NCBI RefSeq assembly: GCF_010365805.1
Contig: NZ_CP048386.1
Coordinates: 372,001 to 436,000, forward strand
Direction: 5' to 3'
Source: Spiroplasma sp. BIUS-1
Lineage (GTDB): Bacteria; Bacillota_I; Bacilli_A; Mycoplasmatales; Mycoplasmataceae
DNA: 64,000 nt
Shown here: in pieces, positions 10,573 through 39,099 of the stretch
How positions within the stretch are numbered: position 1 is the first letter of the stretch
Layout: each line of letters opens with the position of its first letter
Made by a program: the position numbers and the translations under genes
The notes under the pieces: generated by a model
Databases searched by the model: none
The model's input: only the letters and a program-made list of their open reading frames with translations
What the model was told of the DNA's origin: nothing

Positions 10573-11475
10573 ATGAAACACATAAAGAATAAAACCCAAA
10601 AGTTAGTATTAATACTAATACTATCTTTTGTAGGATTTTTTTCTTTCTTATCAACGCTAATGATTTTACCTGGTATGGGTATTGAATCATTAACATTTAT
10701 TAATAGTGTTGAAAAACAAATTAAAAGAATTATGCCTGAGGGGAAATATGTATTTGACCCTACTCATCCACTATATGAAGAGATGATGAATAACGTAGTG
10801 AAAAACTCATTTAAAGCTGATGCGCTTTCAACAATTAATTACTATGACTCAAAAGATTATAATGACCATTATGATGCTTATGTTGAGTTTTCAAATAATT
10901 GATATGAACAGCATTGATCTCAAAAAGTAAAAGACAAAGAACCAATAGATTTATATGATGTTGGTTTAAACTTTATTGAATTTGACAAAGCAATAGCAAC
11001 TGAATATCATTCATTTGGTTTTGTAAATACTGGAATTCAATGAATTTTTAGACCCTCTGGTTTAAAAGAAATTTACTCTAAAGAAACATATGAACTTTCT
11101 TTAGACCAACAAACAATTTGAGACCAAGAAGAATATGATAGTGAAATTAACTATTCTGGTCCTGGTCTTAATGGTATTAAAATAAATTCATCAATAGGCA
11201 CAAACATTGTAAATAACAAGGTTTGATTTTTAAACACTCAAATAGATTCAGTTAATTTCGCTTTAAGCTTAACTAATCCGTTTGTTAATAAAAATATAGA
11301 TAAAAAAGAAAAAATTAGATACGTAACAGTAGATGATTTAAAAGCACCGAACTTTACAGCAACATTAACATTGCTAAGAGTTTCTATAGTATTGTGATTT
11401 TTAAACATCATTATTATTCCATCTGGAATAACTATATACTTCATTTTAAGAAAAAAATGAACTAACAAAGATTAA
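10573..11475 (+). CDS. Membrane-anchored surface protein, unknown function
   Basis: A 300-residue protein with one hydrophobic segment near residues 13-37 and another near 272-293, with a hydrophilic, acidic region between that should lie outside the cell. The C-terminus is a short basic tail. No lipobox and no recognised domain. Shine-Dalgarno AAAGGAGAG precedes ATG 10573. It lies 19 bases upstream of an SGNH-hydrolase lipoprotein and is probably co-transcribed with it and the next lipoprotein. Several TGA codons encode Trp in the outer part. Confidence 0.75.
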
Positions 11476-38039: not shown

Positions 38040-38045
38040 TATAAT
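38040..38045 (+). promoter_or_regulatory. -10 box of the RGG-repeat gene
   Basis: TATAAT about 84 bases before the start codon, giving a leader of about 77 bases. No clear -35 box. Confidence 0.5.
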
Positions 38046-38087
38046 ATAAAAAGTGTTTAATGACACGTCTTTTGATAGCGTAGTATT

Positions 38088-38123
38088 TATTGCCTTTAAA
38101 AGAATTTATATAGAAAGGCAATA
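38088..38123 (+). promoter_or_regulatory. Hairpin burying the ribosome binding site of the RGG-repeat gene
   Basis: TATTGCCTTT (38088-38097) and AAAGGCAATA (38114-38123) form a perfect 10-bp stem with a 16-base loop. The 3' arm contains AAAGG of the Shine-Dalgarno AGAAAGG (38112-38118), which lies ten bases before ATG 38129. In this form the ribosome site is paired. It is a candidate RNA thermometer or other translational switch. Confidence 0.65.
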
Positions 38124-38128
38124 TACTT

Positions 38129-38425
38129 ATGGGATTTGATAACAAAGATAACTTTAGACGTTCAAGAAGTGAAGGTGGATCAAGAGACGGTGGATCAAGA
38201 GACGGTGGAGATCGTGGCGGAAGATCTGGTGGATTCGGTGGTCGCGGTGGAGATCGTGGCGGAAGATCTGGTGGATTCGGTGGTCGCGGTGGTGACCGTG
38301 GCGGAAGATCTGGTGGATTTGGTGGACAAGGTGGAAATTCAGGAAGAATTGACAACTTTGAAAAACCTCTATTAGAACTATTAAAAGAAATTAGTGAAAA
38401 ACTAGATCTTTTATTAACTAAATAA
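38129..38425 (+). CDS. Small RGG-repeat protein
   Basis: A 98-residue protein. After a basic start (residues 1-15), residues 16-67 are almost only Gly, Arg, Ser, Asp and Phe. There are two GGSRD units and then three units of a 14-residue repeat, GGDRGGRSGGFGGR. This is an RGG/RG box of the kind that binds RNA or drives condensate formation in other organisms. The last 27 residues (IDNFEKPLLELL and on) form an amphipathic helix that could make oligomers. No catalytic domain is present. The repeat region is far more GC-rich than its surroundings. Its ribosome site is in a hairpin, suggesting controlled translation. Function unknown. Confidence 0.8.
   Translation: MGFDNKDNFRRSRSEGGSRDGGSRDGGDRGGRSGGFGGRGGDRGGRSGGFGGRGGDRGGRSGGFGGQGGNSGRIDNFEKPLLELLKEISEKLDLLLTK
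38174..38203 (+). repeat. Two tandem 15-bp repeats
   Basis: GGTGGATCAAGAGAC occurs twice in a row without a mismatch (38174-38188, 38189-38203), encoding GGSRD twice in the RGG protein. Confidence 0.9.
38204..38329 (+). repeat. Three tandem 42-bp repeats in the RGG gene
   Basis: Units at 38204-38245, 38246-38287 and 38288-38329. The first two are identical in every base; the third differs at several positions, including its last codon (CAA for CGC). The unit is in frame and encodes 14 residues. Identity of two copies suggests recent slippage or gene conversion. Confidence 0.95.
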
Positions 38426-38429
38426 TTTA

Positions 38430-38466
38430 AAAAAACTTTCAAGTATTATATTTGAAAGTTTTTTTA
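38430..38466 (+). terminator. Terminator of the RGG-repeat gene
   Basis: AAAAACTTTCAA (38431-38442) and TTGAAAGTTTTT (38452-38463), 9-base loop, with T-rich tail. Confidence 0.85.
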
Positions 38467-38571: not shown

Positions 38572-39099
38572 ATGGCTTTAGACAACAGTGTAAAAAATTT
38601 AATTGGAAACCTATTTAGAATAGATAAAAATTTAGAGGTATTTGCCCCTGGTTATATTGATTTAAAAAAAGTAACTGAAGATAACTTACCTTGATTAGGT
38701 CTTAAAAACCTAAATAGAGTTGTTTATTTTGCAACAACTTTCAATTATTTCTTTTTTGAGACAATGATTGCAGATATTACAATAGCTTTAGATGCAAAGA
38801 AAAAAGAACCAATAATCATTGAAGTTAGAGATAATTTCACAAACCTAATTGAATTAGAAAAACTTGGATTTTTACAATCAAAAGTTGAAAATATACCTCC
38901 ATCACAAATGATGTTATTAAGAGATATTTATAAATTTATATATACAAAATATGATAAATTTAATGCTTTATTTGAAAATGATCCAAACATTAAATTATTA
39001 GCAAAACACAGTGGTAACTTATCTGCTCCAATTTTCTTAGAAGATAAAGAAGTGTATGAATACTACGAAAAAGCTGCTAAACAAATATTTGGTAAATAG
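38572..39099 (+). CDS. Unknown soluble protein
   Basis: A 175-residue protein with no signal peptide or membrane segment, mixed helix and strand. No recognised motif. The Shine-Dalgarno is AGGAGAG. It forms a single-gene unit between its -10 box and a terminator. One TGA codon encodes Trp at about residue 41. Confidence 0.75.

Follow-up and report, generated by a model that had tools for sequence, protein, structure and literature searches.

The window that was analysed, a stretch of 64,000 nucleotides, comes from the 915 kb genome of Spiroplasma sp. BIUS-1, in which, judging by broken open reading frames (ORFs) and by translations with table 4, UGA appears to encode tryptophan. A small gene on the forward strand of the window (38129-38425, with its ATG at 38129) encodes an RGG-rich protein of 98 aa with a conserved C-terminal helix (NSGRIDNFEKPLLELLKEISEKLDLLLTK), and was recognised from the ORF itself, its homologues in 16 genomes, their alignment and a structure prediction. 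Its neighbours are aspS and a gene of unknown function; as it has its own -10 box and a probable terminator, it was regarded as probably monocistronic. The -10 box, TATAAT (38040-38045, forward strand), was read from the sequence, is identical in all of the nine closest genomes and sets the predicted transcription start at approximately 38051-38053, and a consensus scan upstream of the gene found no match for a -35 box. The probable terminator, a palindrome followed by a T-run (38430-38466, forward strand; its self-complementarity also gives a match on the reverse strand), was likewise read by eye, as a G+C-based terminator scan did not pick it up. Further downstream, a gene on the forward strand (38572-39099) encodes a protein of 175 aa; the ORF list also places it behind the RGG gene in genome G034, and in G039 there seems to be one more gene in between.

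The RGG protein matched no family in Pfam, NCBIfam or PHROGs and had no convincing match to a known structure, and our literature search found no paper that joins Spiroplasma with RGG proteins. Its predicted structure comprises a C-terminal helix (residues 78-97) in a block with a pLDDT of 79-90, the remainder being of low confidence. Because of the arginine and glycine repeats and the conserved C-terminal helix, the product looks like an RNA-binding protein, and the helix, as modelled, may serve for oligomerisation. RGG repeats often show low specificity when they bind RNA. The link to cold response or RNA chaperoning that was made in the preliminary description of this locus is a guess from the amino acid composition. 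Among species, the repeat region is highly variable in length (proteins of 58-109 aa), and the first residues and the last 30 are conserved.

Base pairing in the leader

Counted from the -10 box at 38040-38045, the leader is approximately 76-78 nt long, which agrees with the previous estimate of about 77 bases. The perfect 10-bp hairpin that was described there is present exactly: TATTGCCTTT (38088-38097) pairs with AAAGGCAATA (38114-38123) around a loop at 38098-38113. In this helix, termed P2, UAUUGCCUUU is the 5' strand, which faces the Shine-Dalgarno (SD) sequence, and AAAGGCAAUA is the 3' strand; both were assigned on the forward strand from the sequence and from covariation. The SD sequence, earlier given as AGAAAGG and as overlapping the 3' arm, does overlap that arm and is longer than was stated, i.e., UAGAAAGG (38111-38118, forward strand), with 8 nt of complementarity to CCUUUCUA at the 3' end of the 16S rRNA of the same genome (an exact match to GGATCACCTCCTTTCTA). 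Five of its bases, AAAGG, lie inside the 3' strand of P2, so that the SD is paired in the leader helix. The relatives keep this SD, with two exceptions: G030 has one substitution, and G028, whose leader is the most diverged, has a different SD.

Of the 54 genes of the window that have an SD-like site, none matches the RGG gene in the length of the perfect Watson-Crick stem over the SD (10 bp; the next ones have 7, 7, 6 and 6 bp). When its upstream region was shuffled 2000 times, a perfect stem of at least 10 bp over the SD arose in 6 cases. The folding energy is less special, since two other genes among the 54 are slightly lower in the same 53-nt stretch; the hairpin alone has a z of -3.0 relative to dinucleotide shuffles. 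One hairpin with a folding energy lower than that of the RGG leader (-12.7 kcal/mol) is found at 11390-11440 on the reverse strand, where a perfect 7-bp hairpin (TTATTCC/GGAATAA) encloses an SD-like site upstream of a putative short ORF.

Two elements of the leader were missed in the preliminary description. One is a second, 5'-terminal hairpin, P1, of the form GUGU-UUAAUG-ACAC (38053-38066, forward strand), which is supported by covariation in the leader alignment. The other is UCUUUU (38068-38073, forward strand), identical in the nine closest genomes and complementary to AAAAGA (38098-38103, forward strand), the first bases of the P2 loop. This third helix, PK, to which the pairing counts and a position-specific test refer, would give an H-type pseudoknot with the SD in its 3' strand. 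UCUUUU can also be paired with the SD itself (GAAAGG, with two G-U pairs); this pairing showed no covariation and was rejected.

Base pairing in P1 and P2 was shown by covariation. In the model-fitted alignment (A4), 100% of the cells of P1 are paired and all three of its counted pairs change on both sides, while in P2 93.8% of the cells are paired and three pairs have changes on both sides; for the two helices together, the values are 95.3% and six pairs. The clearest case is the P2 pair 38092:38119, which changes from G-C to A-U in four leaders (G030, G031, G033 and G045) and has a G-U intermediate in G041; two more P2 pairs changed on both sides, and G039 has one P2 mismatch. When PK was included, 94.3% of the cells in the alignment of 13 leaders were paired compared to 53-63% when the partners were slid by 1-3 columns, and there were seven pairs with changes on both sides compared to 1.8 in shuffles. 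None of the 500 shuffles reached the observed covariation; as these shuffles keep the relatedness of the leaders, such counts are to be read as support rather than as probabilities. Looking for compensatory changes in relatives had been proposed as a check, and for P2, the stem that holds the SD, the outcome was positive. A transcription start inside the hairpin, which had been named as a reason to abandon the proposal, is unlikely, given that both the -10 box and P1 are conserved further upstream and at a constant spacing. In the relatives P1 starts approximately 5-8 nt past the -10 box, and it is therefore probably located at the extreme 5' end of the mRNA.

For PK we hold moderate confidence, as on its own the helix is only modestly above shuffles. 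It was paired in 94.9% of the cells compared to 61-80% when slid and has two pairs with changes on both sides, values that were reached by 24-33 of 500 shuffles. Complementarity of this strength is common by chance in single sequences due to the U/A-rich region. In a position-specific test on six leaders, 0 of 5000 shuffles reached the observed sum, with the stretches having been picked after viewing the alignment. Moreover, the helix lies at the same two places in every leader that has it, and in the diverged leader of G028 it is kept as CUUUUUAAG:UUUAAAAAG, with nine pairs (p 0.0002); in G031 it is poor.

The leader among related genomes

When 60 genomes of the family were searched at the DNA level, the leader turned up in ten further members of the genus. 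With the 34 conserved C-terminal residues as the query, the RGG gene was detected in 16 genomes, 14 of which belong to this genus. An alignment search of 298 genomes of the order gave no further RGG homologue with a convincing score. Leaders were extracted from each genome, and the 13 distinct ones were aligned (A3) and used to build the covariance model R1. With this model 14 leaders were recovered, each genome having one, and the most diverged of them still reached E = 1.6e-6; the E-values are rough, and the 13 leaders behind R1 match it by construction. All 14 leaders, in one copy per genome, precede the RGG gene. There was no convincing match before any other gene in the 60 genomes of the family: the weak model matches (E 0.007-1) were judged to be chance, the ten that were inspected lacking an RGG gene downstream. 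The two RGG homologues from outside the genus (G003 and G004) have no recognisable leader. Six genomes of the same genus (G032, G036, G037, G038, G044 and G046) have neither the RGG gene nor the leader, which indicates that both were gained or lost together, and because the neighbouring genes differ between species, the leader appears to travel with the RGG gene.

In the nine closest genomes, the mean identity is 97.8% for the 5' arm of P2, 93.5% for the loop sequence AAAAGA and 86% for the whole leader, compared to 57% for the DNA upstream (-200 to -93). The SD is buried, the leader is conserved and its association with the RGG gene is exclusive. When the whole window was scanned at Rfam gathering scores, only a tRNA was found, and no family covers the leader. 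The only sub-threshold match there, malK-II RNA (RF03008; 38085-38124, 20.6 bits against a gathering score of 52.9, E = 0.61), was regarded as chance; the RGG locus has no mal gene.

Possible modes of control of the RGG gene

The compensatory changes in the relatives give good support to the earlier proposal that SD sequestration controls translation. The reading that we prefer, to which we assign a probability of roughly 0.4, is that the leader is an SD-sequestering pseudoknot under feedback control by the RGG protein that it precedes. The entire 5' leader, up to and including the SD, would form one conserved RNA domain, with P1 followed by the H-type pseudoknot, whose second stem, P2, holds the SD. 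In the folded state, 30S subunits would be kept off the RGG mRNA, so that folding would repress translation. The trigger would be the free RGG protein, which, as it builds up, would bind and stabilise the fold and thereby repress its own translation; we infer the protein to be the ligand. Since the element is found only with the RGG gene and the product resembles an RNA-binding protein, feedback is the simplest account. The often low specificity of RGG repeats, the lack of a recognisable leader in G003 and G004, the poor PK helix of G031 and the frequency of chance complementarity in such U/A-rich sequence count against it. Pseudoknots at the ribosome site through which an RNA-binding product regulates its own synthesis are known for uS4 (alpha operon) and uS15 (rpsO) (PMC10931766). 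The RGG leader resembles these in having a pseudoknot at the ribosome-binding region of a gene for a putative RNA-binding protein and in the feedback on translation initiation that we infer here. However, the product is a small RGG protein rather than a ribosomal one, its binding to the leader is a conjecture, and both the sequence and the arrangement of the helices are different.

Tentatively, the 5' hairpin and SD-sequestering pseudoknot could represent a previously undescribed family of cis-regulatory RNA in mollicutes, which would act as the feedback operator of a lineage-specific RGG protein; we consider this possible rather than probable. If it is true, an RGG protein would recognise a defined RNA pseudoknot. 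A compact, covarying leader that is tied to one RGG gene makes it testable whether a bacterial RGG protein can recognise a specific RNA fold, and it would add a structured leader that is absent from Rfam 15. Small genomes of the mollicute type have few transcription factors, and their translational control has been little described.

The same structure and the same evidence of conservation would also fit a folded leader that responds to another trans-acting factor, such as a ribosomal protein, a helicase, a cold-shock protein or a small RNA, with the synthesis of the RGG protein tracking the translation machinery. The short U-rich strand UCUUUU could also serve an RNA-binding protein, and the ribosomal protein bS1 prefers U-rich sites and pseudoknots (PMC10931766). 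A general factor might, however, have more targets, and the element precedes no other gene in the 60 family genomes, for which reason we consider this explanation rather unlikely. It is quite improbable that the leader has no regulatory role at all and is a constitutive damper of translation combined with a 5' hairpin that guards the mRNA from decay: P1 does lie at the predicted 5' end and a fixed hairpin might do no more than keep translation low, but UCUUUU and its partner AAAAGA are more conserved than constant damping requires. A metabolite riboswitch, which we regard as quite improbable, would share its topology with SAM-II, SAM-V and the preQ1 class, in which an H-type pseudoknot likewise sequesters the SD in its 3' strand, and the loop sequence between PK and P2, GAUAGCGUA, is conserved in the nine closest genomes. 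In contrast to an aptamer core, this loop drifts in the distant leaders; moreover, the controlled gene is neither metabolic nor that of a transporter, no Rfam class matches at threshold and the leader has the extra 5' hairpin P1. A leader peptide or attenuator was also considered for the reading frame at 38060 (ATG ACA CGT CTT TTG ATA GCG TAG) and rejected, as the relatives conserve neither an upstream start nor a frame.

That the switch might depend on temperature, as was suggested previously, was not supported by our folding calculations. An RNA thermometer or cold-response switch would agree with the position of the SD in an AU-rich hairpin, and the leader of E. coli cspA is known to adopt another conformation in the cold (PMC6386945, PMC9947658). 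In the leader of the window, the SD was predicted in silico to be approximately 95-98% paired, i.e., 2-5% open, between 25 and 42 C, and four of the five further leaders examined behaved in much the same way. P2 alone, computed at 30 C, keeps about -7 to -11 kcal/mol across eight leaders, and that of the window, which is perfect, has about -10.6 kcal/mol. With the SD buried at a constant level and P2 this stable, heat alone is unlikely to act as the switch. These calculations leave out pseudoknot energies, and PK would stabilise the closed state further; they also describe folding without kinetic effects, which leaves some room for a thermometer. The leader shares with fourU and ROSE-type thermometers an SD that is paired within a hairpin, and it differs from them in being predicted closed at physiological temperatures and in its additional conserved helices. 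In fourU thermometers, four uridines pair with the AGGA of the SD (PMC4166951); the partner of the SD in the window is GCCUUU, and this class was therefore rejected. Moreover, P1 and PK would be superfluous in a thermometer, and a melting hairpin does not need the conserved single-stranded and loop sequences. Altogether, we regard a temperature switch as improbable. A point in its favour is the leader of G033 (L043/L076), for which temperature-dependent refolding in the cold was predicted, with the SD 66% open at 5 C and 6% open at 37 C. Here, a longer stretch of pairing is possible between the U-rich linker and the P2 loop.
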